This document shows, piece by piece, positions 40,403 through 45,626 of a DNA stretch of 64,000 nt (positions are counted from its first letter, which is position 1; each line of letters begins with the position of its first letter). This stretch comes from Novosphingobium sp. 9U (GTDB taxonomy: Bacteria > Pseudomonadota > Alphaproteobacteria > Sphingomonadales > Sphingomonadaceae). The stretch covers positions 1,305,001 to 1,369,000 of the forward strand of contig NZ_LR732469.1 of NCBI RefSeq assembly GCF_902506425.1, read 5' to 3'. The position numbers and the translations under genes are program-made. A model generated the notes under the pieces. It saw only the letters and a program-made list of their open reading frames with translations, searched no databases and was not told where the DNA came from.

Positions 40403-40675
40403 TCAGTTGACCGAGTCCTTCAGGCCCTTGCCGGCCTTAAACTTGGGCTGGCTCGAAGCCTTGATCTCCATGGCCTCGCCGGTGCGCGGATTGCGGCCGG
40501 TCGACGCCTTGCGCTTGGCAACCGAAAACGTGCCGAAACCGACCAGGCGCACTTCGTCGCCCTTCTTCAGAGCTTCGGAGATTGCGTCGAACACGCCTTC
40601 GACGGCCTTCACGGCGTCGTTGCGCGTCAAGCCGCTGGTGGTGGCGACAGCGCTGATGAGATCGTTCTTGTTCAT
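40403..40675 (-). CDS. hupB: DNA-binding protein HU
   Basis: A 90-residue nucleoid protein with the HU signature VGFGTFSVAKRKASTGRNPRTGE (about residues 45-67, positions only), including the intercalating-proline arm RNPRTG. It begins MNKNDLISAVATTSGL, the standard start. Monocistronic: own promoter candidate at 40754-40782 and hairpin terminator at 40306-40335. Confidence 0.96.
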   Translation of the reverse strand: MNKNDLISAVATTSGLTRNDAVKAVEGVFDAISEALKKGDEVRLVGFGTFSVAKRKASTGRNPRTGEAMEIKASSQPKFKAGKGLKDSVN

Positions 40676-40753
40676 TATGGGAACCCCCTAGCCTTTCAGT
40701 GGAAACCGCTCGTGGTGGTGAGAAACTTGGATTCGTCTTGCGAATGGGTCGGG

Positions 40754-40782
40754 AATTGAGCGTCTTTCCTGACCGGTGTCAA
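40754..40782 (-). promoter_or_regulatory. sigma-70-type promoter candidate for HU
   Basis: On the minus strand a perfect -35 TTGACA (40777-40782) is followed after 17 bases by TCAATT (40754-40759) as a weak -10. Start of transcription would give a leader of about 70 bases. Confidence 0.5.
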
Positions 40783-40944
40783 AGGCAAATGCCTCCCCAG
40801 ATTGGCGGTTTGGCGCGTTTTCTCGACGTTTTCGCGACGGATGGCGATTGTGCATCGCAGCGACGCGCCATCGCGACGCGGGAACATCCCACGCCGGCAT
40901 CGCAGCATTGCGGGCAGATGGAACTCGGTCGGAGACTCAAGTGA

Positions 40945-40974
40945 AAGGGGCCGGCACGCGAGTACCCGCCCCTT
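40945..40974 (-). terminator. terminator after rplS
   Basis: The stem AAGGGGC / GCCCCTT brackets a 16-base loop; on the minus strand TTTCACTTG follows. It lies 36 bases after the rplS stop codon and would end the ffh-to-rplS operon. Confidence 0.6.
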
Positions 40975-41010
40975 CCCTTGTCAGTCCAAACGCGCCGGCT
41001 TGAGGGTGCC

Positions 41011-41382
41011 TCAGGCTTCCTCGTTCCGGACGTCGCGACGCTCGGCGATGCGAGCGCGCTTACCGGTGCGGCCGCGCAGGTAATACAGCTTGGCGCGACG
41101 CACCACGCCCTTGCGGACGACGGTGATCGCGTCGAGGTTGGGCGAGTAGAGCGGGAACACGCGCTCCACGCCTTCGCCGAAGCTCATCTTGCGCACGGTG
41201 AAGTTGGAACCCATGCCGCGGTTCGAACGCGCGATGCACACGCCTTCGAAGTTCTGGACGCGGGTACGGGTGCCTTCGACGACCTTCACGCCGACGCGGA
41301 CGGTGTCGCCCGGACGGAACGTGGGGATCTCTTTCGCAGCCTTGGCGATTTCCTCGGCTTCAATCTGCTGAATCAGGTTCAC
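41011..41382 (-). CDS. rplS: 50S ribosomal protein L19
   Basis: A 123-residue ribosomal protein: [13 protein letters not shown] at the start, [18 protein letters not shown] (about residues 20-37), [16 protein letters not shown] (about 42-57) and [11 protein letters not shown]. The start codon is GTG at 41382, overlapping the trmD stop as GTGA, so translation is coupled to trmD. Confidence 0.97.
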
Positions 41383-42125
41383 TTGCCTGGTCCTTCGTCT
41401 GTTCGCTGCGCGCCAGAGGCAGACTGAACCCGAACGCCATTGTGACGCTCCCAAAGGTCCGGCCTGCGTGACCGTGTGTCGATCTCAGCCTGTTGCTTTC
41501 GCCAGGCCGCGATCTTCGCATGATCCCCCGATCGCAGCACTTGCGGGATCGTGCGCCCCTCCCATTCGACTGGTCGGGTATAGTGCGGGTATTCGAGCAG
41601 GCCGTCCTCGAACGACTCCTCGGCCCCGCTGGAAGGCGCGCCCATTACGCCGGGAAGCAGCCGAATGCAAGCATCCAGCAGCATCAGCGCCGCAGGTTCG
41701 CCGCCAGAAAGGACGATGTCGCCGACGGAGACCTCCTCCACTTGGCGCCCCTCGAAGATACGCTCATCGAAGCCCTCAAACCGGCCACACAGCACCGTGA
41801 CGCCCGGCCCTTGCGCCAGTTCCCGCACGCGTGCCTGCGTGATCGGCGTTCCGCGCGGCGTCATGGCGATGACGGGAGCCGCGGGGCTTAGCGAACGGGC
41901 GTGGTCGATGGCGGCCGCCAGCACGTCGGCCTTGAGCACCATACCGGCGCCCCCACCCGCGGGTGTGTCATCGACGGTGCGGTGCTTGTCGCTCGCGAAA
42001 TCACGAATGTGCACGGGGTTGAGCGACCACTTGCCCTCCGCCAGCGCCCTGCCCGCGAGCGAGAAGCCGAGCGGGCCGGGGAACATCTCGGGATAGAGCG
42101 TGAGGACGGTGGCTACGAAGGTCAT
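41379..42125 (-). CDS. trmD: tRNA (guanine37-N1)-methyltransferase
   Basis: Methylates G37 of tRNAs reading CNN codons, preventing +1 frameshifts. The 248-residue SPOUT enzyme shows [20 protein letters not shown] (about residues 8-27), [23 protein letters not shown] (about 42-64), the SAM-binding knot [13 protein letters not shown] ... [15 protein letters not shown] (about 110-145) and the C-terminal RRPDLWER. Its ATG is only 7 bases after the vapC stop codon, so its promoter supply is either the whole operon or the vapBC promoter. Confidence 0.96.
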
Positions 42126-42132
42126 GGCTTGC

Positions 42133-42516
42133 TCAGACGGTCCAATTCTCGACGAGCAGACCGGGCACGTCGGCGAAGTCGCTCTCGTTGTTGGTAACGA
42201 CGATCGCGCCGATACTCAGCGCGTGTGCAGCGAGCAACCGATCGAAGCGCGCGCGTTTGAACGGCAGGCGGGCGTAAGCACGGGCAGCCGCCTCGTCGAA
42301 AGGGAGAAGCGGAATTTGCGCCACGAACGCTTCTAGTATCTCAGGTGGAGGTGGCTTTCCGACGTACGTGCCATACGCCACTTCGGCATAGCTGATCACC
42401 GACATCGCGATCTCGCCCTCCTCACAGTCGGCGATGCGCGACACAAGACCATCATACCCGACGTCCATCGCGTACACGGCGGAATTGGCGTCGATCAGAT
42501 AGCGCGCATGGCTCAT
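42133..42516 (-). CDS. vapC: PIN-domain toxin VapC
   Basis: A 127-residue PIN-domain ribonuclease. The four acidic active-site residues can be read: D9 in YLIDAN, E45 in SYAEVAYG, D at about 94 in [13 protein letters not shown] and D at about 114 in NNESDFADV. VapC toxins cut tRNA or rRNA when free of antitoxin. ATG 42516 overlaps the vapB stop (ATGA). The odd point is the location inside the ribosomal operon, between rimM and trmD. Confidence 0.92.
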
Positions 42517-42788
42517 CCGGGATCAGCGATCTGCTGCTTCTTTGCTGCGATCGTACTTGGGCGCTCTTCGAAGTCTTCGCGCGGTGCCAGGCGGATGCCC
42601 GGCGCCTTGCCCGCAAATCCGCTAACATCGATCTTGCGCTTAGCAGCCGGCTTCCTGCGCAAATGCAGTTCGCCATCAACTTGTTCGACGAGCCATTCGC
42701 AGTCAGGCTCAACGCCCAACGCCGCCGGAATACGGATCGCGACCGAATTCCCGGACTTGAAGCTTTTGGCGGTGTATTCCTGACCCAT
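42513..42788 (-). CDS. vapB: AbrB-type antitoxin VapB
   Basis: A 91-residue antitoxin with an N-terminal swapped-hairpin AbrB fold (KSFKSGNSVAIRIPAALG, about residues 8-25; CEWLVEQVDGELHLRRK) and a flexible C-terminal tail (LAPREDFEERPS) that should thread into VapC. ATG 42788 lies 10 bases after a palindromic operator at 42799-42819. Translation is coupled to vapC. Confidence 0.9.
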   Translation of the reverse strand: MGQEYTAKSFKSGNSVAIRIPAALGVEPDCEWLVEQVDGELHLRRKPAAKRKIDVSGFAGKAPGIRLAPREDFEERPSTIAAKKQQIADPG

Positions 42789-42798
42789 GCCGACCTCC

Positions 42799-42819
42799 GT
42801 ATATACAGCAAGTATATAC
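42799..42819. promoter_or_regulatory. vapBC operator (twin GTATATAC)
   Basis: GTATATAC-AGCAA-GTATATAC: two copies of a self-complementary octamer, 10 bases upstream of the vapB ATG. VapBC complexes bind such AT-rich palindromes to repress themselves, and the octamers can also serve as a -10 region. It contrasts with the GC-rich surroundings and shows that vapBC has its own promoter inside the operon. Confidence 0.75.
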
Positions 42820-42910
42820 ATCCACTGCCCGCGTGGCAACGTGTCTAGTGCAAGGTCGTCTGATCGCTATGGATCGATAGACCACATCGCACATCGGCCC
42901 TGATGACGGA

Positions 42911-43423
42911 TCAATCCTCGGCGAAAGCAGCTGCGATGACCAGCCGTTGCCCATCCCAGTCGGGTACGGCGGCCGCATTCATCGGCACCATGAAGCGCTT
43001 ACGTTTGCCACTCTCGTCCGGCGGACGCTCGATCTCGAGCACGTCGCCGGCGCCGTAGTTCTCGACGGCGATGCAGGTGCCCAGCGCCTGCCCTTCCATC
43101 GAGATCGCCGGCAAGCCGATGAGGTCGGCGTGATAGTACTCGCCCTCGTCCGGGTCGGGCATCTGCGAGCGCGGTACGGTCAGCGCCGTCCCACGCAGCT
43201 TCTCCGCCGTATTGCGGTCGGTCACTTCGGCGAAGCGGGCGATCGCGCCGCCCTTGCCGTCGTCCTTCAGCTTCGCGAGCGTCAGGCCGCCATCGTTGAA
43301 GGCGCGGTAGCGCTTGAGCGCCGCCACGCCTTCTCCGAACAGCTTGAGGCGCACCTCGCCCGTTATCCCGTGCGCGCCGGACACGGCGGCAAGGGTAACG
43401 GGACGGTCAGGCGACAGAGCCAA
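42911..43423 (-). CDS. rimM: 16S rRNA maturation factor RimM
   Basis: A 170-residue 30S assembly factor that binds S19. The N-terminal domain has VSGAHGITGEVRLKLFGEG (about residues 14-32), and the PRC-barrel domain has EYYHADLIGLPAI (about 96-108), VENYGAGDVLEIE and FMVPMNAAAVPDWD. It starts 2 bases after the rpsP stop codon. A 122-base gap to vapB follows, unlike the tight spacing elsewhere in this operon. Confidence 0.95.
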   Translation of the reverse strand: MALSPDRPVTLAAVSGAHGITGEVRLKLFGEGVAALKRYRAFNDGGLTLAKLKDDGKGGAIARFAEVTDRNTAEKLRGTALTVPRSQMPDPDEGEYYHADLIGLPAISMEGQALGTCIAVENYGAGDVLEIERPPDESGKRKRFMVPMNAAAVPDWDGQRLVIAAAFAED

Positions 43424-43425
43424 GA

Positions 43426-43896
43426 TCAGCCCTCAGCGGGAGCCTCGCTGCTCTCCACACGGGGCTCTTCTGCGCCCGGGTTCTCGGCGCCTTCAGCCGG
43501 AGCTTCGGCCGAGGGAGCCTGTGCGGCGGCAGCAGCGGCGGCTGCGGCTTCTTCAGCCTCGGCGGCCTTGGCAGCCTTGTCTTCGGCGCGCTCCTTGGCC
43601 TTCTTGCCGGGCTCGGCCTTGTTCGGGTTGTTGGAAGCGGGACGCTCCTTGATGCCAGCCTTGTCGAGCAGGCGAGCAACACGGTCGGTCGGCTGCGCGC
43701 CGACGCCCAGCCAGTAGCGCACGCGGTCCTCGACCAGCTTCACGCGGTTCTCGTCATCCTTGGCGAGCACCGGGTTGTAGGTACCCAGCTGCTCAAGGTA
43801 CTTACCATCGCGGGGCGAACGCGAGTTGGTGACGACGATACGGTAGTACGGACGCTTCTTGGCGCCACCGCGCGAGAGACGGATTGCTACGGACAT
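43426..43896 (-). CDS. rpsP: 30S ribosomal protein S16 with long acidic/alanine tail
   Basis: Residues 1-80 are canonical S16: [22 protein letters not shown], then [13 protein letters not shown], and [16 protein letters not shown]. From about residue 88 there is an extra tail of about 68 residues made of Lys, Ala and Glu ([28 protein letters not shown]), roughly doubling the normal 80-90 length. Such tails occur in several alphaproteobacteria; the role is unknown. Confidence 0.96.
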
Positions 43897-43926
43897 TGCT
43901 TCAACCTTCCTTCTAGATTCTGATGC

Positions 43927-45363
43927 TTACTTCTTGAATTTGCTCATGTCGGGCAGGCTGCCGACGCCGCCACCCATTCCGCCGAGCGCATTGCCGAGGC
44001 CGGGCATCGCGCCCTCAAGGCCGCCCTTGCCGAACATCGCGGCCAGGCCCTTCAGGCCGCCCATCTTTTTGATCTGCTTCATCGCCTTGCCCATTTCCTG
44101 GTGCATCTTGAGCAGCTTGTTCACGTCCTGGACTTGTGTGCCCGAGCCCTTGGCGACGCGGATCTTGCGCTTGGCGTTGAGCAGCGCCGGGTTGACACGC
44201 TCCTTGATCGTCATCGAGCCGATGATCGCGTCCATGCGCAGCAGCACGCGCTCGTCCATGCCCGAGGCTGCCATCGCCGCCTTGGCCTTCTTCATGCCCG
44301 GCATCATGCCCGCGAGCGCGCCCAAGCCGCCCATGTTCTGCATCTGCTTCAGCTGCATGCGCAGGTCGTTCATGTCGAACTTGCCCTGCTCCATGCGCTT
44401 GGCGAGCGCTTCGGCGTCCTCCAGCTTGACCGTCTCGGCCGCCTTCTCGACGAGGCTGACGATGTCACCCATGCCGAGGATCCGGTTGGCGACCCGGGCG
44501 GGCTGGAACACCTCGATCGCGTCGAGCTTCTCGCCCGTGCCCGCAAACTTGATCGGCTTGCCGGTAACGGCACGCATCGACAGCGCCGCACCGCCGCGCG
44601 CATCGCCGTCCATCCGTGTCAGCACGACGCCGGTGAGGTCAACCTGCCCAGCGAACGACTGCGCGACGTTGACCGCGTCCTGGCCGGTCAGCGAGTCGAC
44701 CACCAGCAGCACTTCGCGCGGGGTCGAGATGGCGGAAACCGCCTTCATCTCGTCCATCAACTGCTGGTCGACGTGGAGGCGGCCAGCGGTGTCGAGCAGC
44801 AGCACGTCGATAGCCTGCAGCTTGGCCGACTGCAGCGCGCGAGTGGCGATCTCGGTGGGCTGCTGCCCGGCGATGATGGGCAGGGTGGCAACGCCGACTT
44901 GCTCGCCGAGCACCTTCAGCTGCTCCTGCGCCGCCGGACGATTGACGTCCAGCGATGCCATCATCGCCTTCTTGCCGTGCTTCTCCTTTAGGAGCTTGGC
45001 GATCTTGGCGGTGCTGGTGGTCTTGCCCGAGCCCTGCAGGCCGACCATCATGATGACGACCGGCGGGCTGGCGTTCAGGTCGAGCTCGGGCGTGGTCTCG
45101 CCGCCCAGCGTCTCGATCAGGGCATCGTTGACGATCTTGATGACCTGCTGGCCCGGCGTGACCGAGCGCAGCACGTCCTGGCCTACGGCCTTCTCGGTGA
45201 CCTGGTCGACGAAGCGTCGCACCACCGGCAGCGCCACGTCGGCTTCGAGAAGCGCGATTCGCACCTCGCGCATGGCATCGCGAACGTCCTGCTCCTTGAG
45301 CGCACCGCGCCCACGCAGCTTGTCGAACACACCACCGAGACGATCGGACAGGCTGTCGAACAT
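43927..45363 (-). CDS. ffh: signal recognition particle protein Ffh
   Basis: A 478-residue SRP54 GTPase that guides membrane proteins to FtsY and the translocon. N domain about 1-95; G domain with GLQGSGKTTS (about 108-117), DVNRPAAQEQL, DTAGRLHVDQQLMDEM (about 190-205) and TRMDGDARGGAAL (about 248-260); the Met-rich M domain binds 4.5S RNA (MKQIKKMGGLKGLAAMFGKGG). It is the first gene of the ffh-rpsP-rimM-(vapBC)-trmD-rplS cluster. Confidence 0.97.
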   Translation of the reverse strand: MFDSLSDRLGGVFDKLRGRGALKEQDVRDAMREVRIALLEADVALPVVRRFVDQVTEKAVGQDVLRSVTPGQQVIKIVNDALIETLGGETTPELDLNASPPVVIMMVGLQGSGKTTSTAKIAKLLKEKHGKKAMMASLDVNRPAAQEQLKVLGEQVGVATLPIIAGQQPTEIATRALQSAKLQAIDVLLLDTAGRLHVDQQLMDEMKAVSAISTPREVLLVVDSLTGQDAVNVAQSFAGQVDLTGVVLTRMDGDARGGAALSMRAVTGKPIKFAGTGEKLDAIEVFQPARVANRILGMGDIVSLVEKAAETVKLEDAEALAKRMEQGKFDMNDLRMQLKQMQNMGGLGALAGMMPGMKKAKAAMAASGMDERVLLRMDAIIGSMTIKERVNPALLNAKRKIRVAKGSGTQVQDVNKLLKMHQEMGKAMKQIKKMGGLKGLAAMFGKGGLEGAMPGLGNALGGMGGGVGSLPDMSKFKK

Positions 45364-45485
45364 GAGCAGTCCACTCCAGTTGCCGCGAGCGAAAACCCGC
45401 GAAACGCCAAAAACGCCGGCGGACGAAACCTCGTCAGCCAGCGTCTAAATAGTCACCCCCTCACAGCCCAAAAAAGCGCCGCGAA

Positions 45486-45626
45486 GGTATGGTGAGATTT
45501 GGTTCAGGCCGGAGCGAGAATGGTGGCCTTCCGAGAACCGGAGCGGAGCGACCTTCATGGTCGTGAGCACCGGAAGCGCAGGAGGCTGCCGTTCGCAGCC
45601 CGGCATGGACCAAATATCGCCATACC
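45486..45626. repeat. 141-base near-complete palindrome (long hairpin or MITE-like element)
   Basis: The ends GGTATGGTGAGATTTGGTTC (45486-45505) and its inverted copy (45607-45626) match at 17 of 20 bases. Inside, 45514-45530 and 45580-45594 pair again (GAATGGTGGCCTTCC with GGAGGCTGCCGTTC, with G-U pairs), and GACC-TTCAT-GGTC forms the tip. Several mismatches are G-U or paired changes, which points to a selected structure. It lies between ffh and tRNA-Ala. Confidence 0.7.

Follow-up and report, generated by a model that had tools for sequence, protein, structure and literature searches.

A VapBC toxin-antitoxin module at a variable site between rimM and trmD in Sphingomonadaceae and its possible control of trmD-rplS

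Introduction

The persistence of toxin-antitoxin modules on bacterial chromosomes has long called for an explanation. The Novosphingobium locus described here raises this question in a specific form: a vapBC module lies inside the ffh-rpsP-rimM-trmD-rplS operon, and it has to be asked how the module came to occupy this position and whether it governs the essential genes downstream. The window, i.e. the whole stretch of DNA that was analysed, comprises 64,000 nucleotides. Within one family, the same address and the same operator occur in a natural series, which ranges from empty sites to sites with the module alone, with the module plus cargo and with a divergent gene that parts the module from the upstream operon. 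With this series, one can test whether modules of this kind endure because they take over the expression of essential genes next to them. A textbook example of a conserved operon is thus open to insertion at one junction, mostly with translation into trmD kept.

Genome sets

The family sample consists of 138 relatives, spread evenly by genus across Sphingomonadaceae (96 genera including that of the window). The distance between rimM and trmD was measured in the 125 relatives with both genes on one contig and strand; the 13 relatives left out comprise three without a trmD match at the threshold, seven with the genes on different contigs or strands and three with the genes far apart. A larger set of 118 vapBC loci, in which close kin remain, combines 64 loci from named genomes (chosen by VapC), 27 from the family sample, 26 from the genus and the window.

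Gene order and identity of the module

Based on Pfam and NCBIfam matches and on the open reading frames, the gene order on the minus strand of the window is ffh-rpsP-rimM-vapB-vapC-trmD-rplS (Table 1). SRP54/Ffh, S16, RimM, the PIN-domain VapC, TrmD and L19 all pass the Pfam cut-offs. Compared to the canonical cluster, every gene is kept in the same order and on one strand, and an additional operon segment is found between rimM and trmD. The profile matches and coordinates confirm the position of vapB-vapC given by the initial annotation, and also the start of trmD 7 bases after vapC. The span of 42125..42910 assigned to the module does contain it, but vapB starts at 42788, and positions 42789-42910 form a 122-bp spacer between rimM and vapB that holds the operator and the -35 element. 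The trmD stop and the rplS start overlap by 4 nt (GTGA). The vapC stop and the trmD start of the window do not overlap, which places the window among the looser cases of docking. A terminator scan of positions 40600-45600 on the minus strand yielded no site.

Table 1 Features of the locus in the window
Feature	Position	Strand	Evidence or remark
ffh (SRP protein), start of the conserved cluster	43927..45363	-	PF00448, PF02978, PF02881
rpsP, ribosomal protein S16	43426..43896	-	PF00886, TIGR00002
rimM, ribosome maturation factor	42911..43423	-	PF01782, TIGR02273
-35-like element TTGCCA, starting 20 nt upstream of the operator	42834..42839	-	promoter scan; TTGA in the same register in relatives
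Operator GTATATAC-N5-GTATATAC, two perfect copies of a self-complementary octamer	42799..42819		sequence
-10-like element TATACT, within the operator	42811..42816	-	promoter scan
vapB, antitoxin, 91 aa, MazE/AbrB-like N terminus (sub-threshold)	42513..42788	-	4-nt overlap with vapC
vapC, PIN-domain toxin, 127 aa	42133..42516	-	PF01850, E 1.3e-9
trmD, tRNA m1G37 methyltransferase	41379..42125	-	PF01746, NF000648, TIGR00088
rplS, ribosomal protein L19, GTG start	41011..41382	-	PF01245, TIGR01024

The acidic residues D9, E45 and D92 of VapC occur in all 118 aligned loci and D116 in 115 of them, and they are intact in the window; we take them to be the catalytic four of a PIN-domain toxin. Comparison of the window's vapC with that of four relatives gave dN/dS values of 0.07-0.09 (at dS above 1.3; a fifth was not computable), and four other pairs yielded 0.02, 0.18, 0.22 and 0.39. 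Since all values are below 1, vapC is likely under purifying selection, the strength of which appears uneven. The antitoxin is less clear-cut, scoring 14.5 bits against PF04014 (MazE, cut-off 24.7) and 22.9 bits against the NCBIfam MazE/PemI model (cut-off 50). Among antitoxins at the same position, that of locus L219 exceeds the PF04014 cut-off with 30.8 bits and that of L082 has no match. The 4-nt overlap of vapB and vapC recurs in 96 of 117 loci. Judged from the toxin and the layout, the module is a complete-looking type II VapBC system.

The solved chains that match best are mostly named tRNA(fMet)-specific VapC. Models for this specificity were missed (NF047863, 72.3 bits against 140; NF010285, 45.2 against 143); scores below the cut-off indicate relationship only, so the VapC of the window is not filed as tRNA(fMet)-specific. 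The enteric VapBC of Shigella flexneri (MvpAT) contains a related PIN toxin (PDB 3tnd and others, E ~1e-11 to 1e-12) and resembles the window in its antitoxin, there a VapB of the SpoVT/AbrB type and here a putative MazE/AbrB-like one, as well as in an operator sequence overlapping the promoter. Shigella vapBC is plasmid-borne, and one of its two operator sites covers the -10, the other the -35 (PMC3384007). Unlike that system, the window has one pair of GTATATAC on the -10, and its module is chromosomal and inside an essential operon. A chromosomal toxin-antitoxin system with one fixed site that varies between relatives is also found in E. coli ccdO157, between folA and apaH, a site that is not known to belong to a translation operon. 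The vapBC module described here differs in that it spans a bacterial family and that, in many species, stop and start codons overlap where it meets an essential gene.

Putative operator and promoter of vapB

The palindromic operator noted initially was confirmed and overlaps the -10 of the vapB promoter, which reads TTGCCA-17-TATACT with the -10 within GTATATACTTGCTGTATATAC. In the 4.6 Mb genome of the strain it is the single site at up to two mismatches, with none for the reversed pattern; on this ground, a wider VapB regulon was rejected. An operator site was found in 31 of 139 family genomes (reversed pattern: one of 139), and 29 of these 31, including the strain's own, are at a trmD-linked vapBC. 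Conversely, five of the 33 linked family loci lack the operator at up to one mismatch and three at up to two. Among the 118 vapBC loci it is exact in 88 and has one mismatch in 17 (105 loci taken together), two in three and three in one; eight have none and one has no vapB match. In one of the eight (L168), the spacing of the two octamers is 4 bases rather than 5. The operator persists even where VapB is only about 36% identical to that of the window: L125 and L091 keep it exactly, L099 with one mismatch. An additional copy with one mismatch was observed at position 2801 of locus L340 (G203 C145), where another vapBC (VapC 37-41% identical) lies away from trmD.

The -35 of the window is imperfect, and the promoter scan of the window returned one promoter-like site against 0.5 expected. 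The same scan recovered the vapB site in L190 (one against 0.9 expected); in L192 this crude scan showed no vapB site and reported only a weak one downstream of trmD. In 46 loci operator and rimM are fused, such that the stop codon TAG of rimM supplies with its G the first base of GTATATAC, and 39 of these have TTGA at -22 from the operator. Among the 55 loci with the operator away from rimM, TTGA occurs 36 times at -22 to -18, compared to about one expected by chance assuming even base use. Because these operators stand away from rimM, its coding sequence cannot explain TTGA in the -35 register.

Distribution of the module in the family

In the family sample, vapC adjoins trmD in 33 of 138 relatives: 31 in the rimM-trmD gap on the trmD strand (125 pairs) and two, G265 and G282, on rearranged or fragmentary contigs. 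In G265, rimM is on a separate contig and vapBC still accompanies trmD; a same-strand amidase-like gene upstream may feed trmD there. These 33 are part of 42 VapC places in total. All 29 matches with at least 43% identity are trmD-linked; the 13 matches below 43% comprise four linked (39-41%) and nine unlinked ones (33-42%).

A search of named genomes by VapC alone gave 174 relatives, and in 79 of the best 80 trmD lies downstream on the same strand. In all 70 of these best 80 loci that also show rimM, vapC lies between rimM and trmD. The best 80 belong to Sphingopyxis, Novosphingobium, Sphingobium, Sphingomonas, Blastomonas, Croceibacterium and other genera. A protein search with VapC returned 2766 proteins at E ≤1e-20. 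Among 337 class-level genomes, four outside the family have a VapC at E ≤1e-15 (36-46% identity), none of which adjoins trmD, and the same address beyond the family was rejected on this basis. In the open-licence PMC literature, the titles and abstract beginnings among the matches listed do not describe vapBC at rimM-trmD. The one locus of the best 80 without trmD downstream is L203, an apparent escapee with a 65% identical VapC, an exact operator and no trmD on a 6-kb contig labelled Burkholderiales; it nests among trmD-linked alleles in a VapC tree (125 columns for 124 rows) that is poorly resolved, has long branches and was used only for this placement.

The rimM-trmD junction as a cargo site

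The module is one of many occupants of the interval. The gap between the rimM and trmD matches is below 100 bp in 27, 100-500 bp in 12, 500-2000 bp in 65 and above 2000 bp in 21 of the 125 family genomes, i.e. at least 100 bp in 98. In other families of the order it does not exceed 237 bp in 54 measured genomes (of 59; five had no usable rimM or trmD match). The junction is thus a variable cargo site in Sphingomonadaceae. Clustering of the cargo reading frames after codon-scored calling revealed LysR regulators, beta-lactamase-family proteins, FAD oxidoreductases, metallophosphatases and unclassified small hydrophobic proteins of about 100 aa. The operon seems to be broken in some lineages of the family: rimM and trmD are far apart, in another order or on other strands in G154, G174, G262 and G273, and are separated by contig in G165, G172, G182, G187, G228 and G265, where draft breaks are possible.

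The small hydrophobic proteins are very diverse and lie directly upstream of trmD, ending on ATGA, with or without vapBC (L061, L063, L065, L089, L100, L114, L123, L159, L183, L213 and others). A second kind of small reading frame before trmD (L070, L142, L166, L193, L195, L256) has the look of an acyl-carrier type and presumably resembles DUF1493, with no confident Pfam match. Of 59 small proteins before trmD that were scanned, including six acyl-carrier-like ones, none had a Pfam match better than E 0.0026. A known structured RNA near trmD was rejected: in 20 loci, cmscan at the gathering threshold returned a single match, to the ffh sRNA family in L159, where it lies upstream of rimM.

Occupants are often docked onto trmD in a similar manner. 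Of 26 empty sites, 18 show a 4-nt overlap between rimM and trmD (8/8 and 10/18, the latter count covering 18 of the 27 short-gap genomes). A 4-nt overlap of vapC and trmD is present in 20 of the 33 family loci and absent from 13; in the larger set, which overlaps the family set, it is present in 44 of 118. Among 88 family loci (those of the 98 with an NTGA start), the frame that has the TGA of trmD's ATGA as its stop stays open over 60 codons or more in 61, compared to 4 and 13 for the other frames; in loci without vapC the numbers are 37 of 60, against 4 and 10. This suggests that translation running into trmD is favoured, which would limit the cargo that can be inserted. Of 87 gap loci, 43 have 200-450 bp between vapC and trmD, a stretch that may contain a further promoter.

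Of 79 loci examined, 11 have a divergent gene immediately upstream of vapB, and five of these (L161, L190, L192, L210, L218) combine it with a 4-nt vapC-trmD overlap. In these joined layouts, the intergenic DNA closest to trmD on its upstream side is the vapB promoter region. Since the divergent gene parts vapBC from rimM, upstream readthrough into trmD is unlikely in these five loci.

These observations bear on the strongest alternative, according to which the junction is merely a tolerant insertion site and vapBC one passenger of many, with its own promoter and no meaningful effect on trmD-rplS, the latter being read from the rpsP promoter or from promoters within the cargo. The many unrelated genes in the same interval, the 27 of 125 family genomes with a gap below 100 bp and the 50 of 75 Novosphingobium loci without the module are in line with it. 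However, vapBC in many genera often occupies the position nearest trmD, joined to it by 4 nt, and a divergent gene between vapBC and rimM makes readthrough from upstream unlikely in five of 79 loci. We regard this alternative as rather unlikely.

Gain, loss and exchange of the module

Presence and absence of vapBC change at least 14 times on the Novosphingobium tree of 75 loci with both full proteins (shuffles average 21; well-supported branches alone force 7), so the module is clustered but unstable in this genus. Locus L082 has the module and L132 does not, with flanks that are 95-97% identical. The border falls in the stretch from the stop codon of the preceding gene to the trmD start; no target duplication was seen in this one pair by eye. 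Pfam matches of 36 of the 47 cargo clusters, from loci other than L222-L321, covered 25 of 26 families, and no integrase or transposase was among these.

Modules and flanking genes have different relationships. In 107 of the 118 loci, Spearman correlations of identity were 0.27 for VapC-TrmD, 0.65 for RimM-TrmD and 0.76 for VapB-VapC. Fast change of VapC may account for part of the low first value, but not for the 224 of 6903 pairs in which VapC is more similar than TrmD. By their flanks, the window and L092 are sister loci, with DNA identities of 74% for both vapB and vapC, 80% for rimM and 88% for trmD. In L104 and L125 the flanks are 91-92% identical and the modules 56-59%. The modules of L119 and L068 show 93-97% identity, with flanks at 81% and 92%. 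These patterns point to a module that was gained, lost and apparently also swapped between genera at one address. The earlier suggestion that its place in the operon makes the module impossible to lose therefore fails across species.

All 1899 plasmid and 5 phage matches (72,556 and 50,697 records searched) were below 60% identity, and a plasmid or phage vector was rejected. The best plasmid match is an 880-kb S. parapaucimobilis record, which itself carries ffh-rpsP-rimM-vapBC-trmD-rplS in the divergent-gene layout with an exact operator. As no plasmid or phage relative reaches 60%, recombination through the flanking core genes is our best guess for the vehicle.

A second alternative assumes a functional link between the two enzymes. 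TrmD modifies position 37 of tRNA, and m1G37 might alter which tRNAs are cut by VapC, with selection keeping the genes together. The near-exclusive co-location for close VapC relatives is in line with this, as is cleavage of initiator tRNA in the anticodon region by a Shigella VapC (PMC3384007). Against it stand the naming of the best-matching solved chains, VapC relationships that do not track TrmD and the unrelated cargo at the same site. Initiator tRNA, tRNA(fMet), is not known to be a substrate of TrmD. A link via the tRNA substrates of TrmD is a weak candidate, and we consider it very improbable. A chance insertion or an artefact confined to this assembly, for which no supporting evidence was found, is practically discounted and was rejected, because the operon comparison in related genomes revealed the same arrangement in many of them, with a conserved operator and conserved catalytic residues. 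Rather than a single insertion, the module is a common occupant of a variable site, being linked to trmD in 33 of 138 family relatives.

Predicted control of trmD-rplS

The original observation holds and is larger than first described. The explanation we prefer, and consider probable, is that a mobile VapBC module became fitted to the rimM-trmD junction and brought an autoregulated promoter in front of trmD-rplS. This reading is drawn from the sequences, which show a shared address, a conserved operator and -35 register, overlapping stop and start codons and repeated change between presence and absence, as well as modules with relationships that differ from those of the flanking genes. The module would act as a ready-made operon segment, consisting of a sigma-70-like promoter with its operator, vapB and vapC, followed by trmD, which in many species is abutted or overlapped by 4 nt. 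VapB-VapC would repress the vapB promoter by binding GTATATAC-N5-GTATATAC, and vapBC, trmD and rplS would be on common transcripts. Under stress, degradation of the antitoxin should lead to derepression and raise trmD-rplS along with vapBC, with VapC presumably cutting initiator tRNA. Exchange of alleles would proceed through homologous recombination within the conserved genes on either side.

Control of trmD by VapBC is suggested by the anatomy of the locus, with a conserved operator and promoter oriented towards trmD-rplS, no terminator site from the scan of the minus strand and the 4-nt overlap of vapC and trmD in 20 of 33 family loci. Such regulation of trmD-rplS is likely where the layout is of the joined type and possible in the window; there, the rpsP-rimM transcript from upstream can serve trmD as well. 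A more far-reaching version, which concerns Sphingomonadaceae with vapC joined to trmD, is put forward tentatively: a selfish module would have turned into the regulated promoter of essential translation genes and would move between genera without an integrase, with the conserved operon genes serving as arms for recombination and trmD's ATGA for docking. If this captured promoter exists, activation of the toxin would by itself increase the amounts of TrmD and L19 available for recovery, and deletion of the module would remove the trmD-rplS promoter, which would amount to a third kind of addiction.

Length variation of TrmD

TrmD is longer than 262 aa in 40 of 247 proteins (37 of 231 distinct ones), with loci including L070, L109, L112, L127, L137, L140, L159, L163, L170, L187, L196 and L202. 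In 14 examined cases, the surplus residues are near positions 75-82 (e.g. GRGT...GPPPR, FPRRRES...DPRFRGDD) and look to us like translated palindromic repeats, as if repeat elements kept entering one loop of this essential enzyme in frame.
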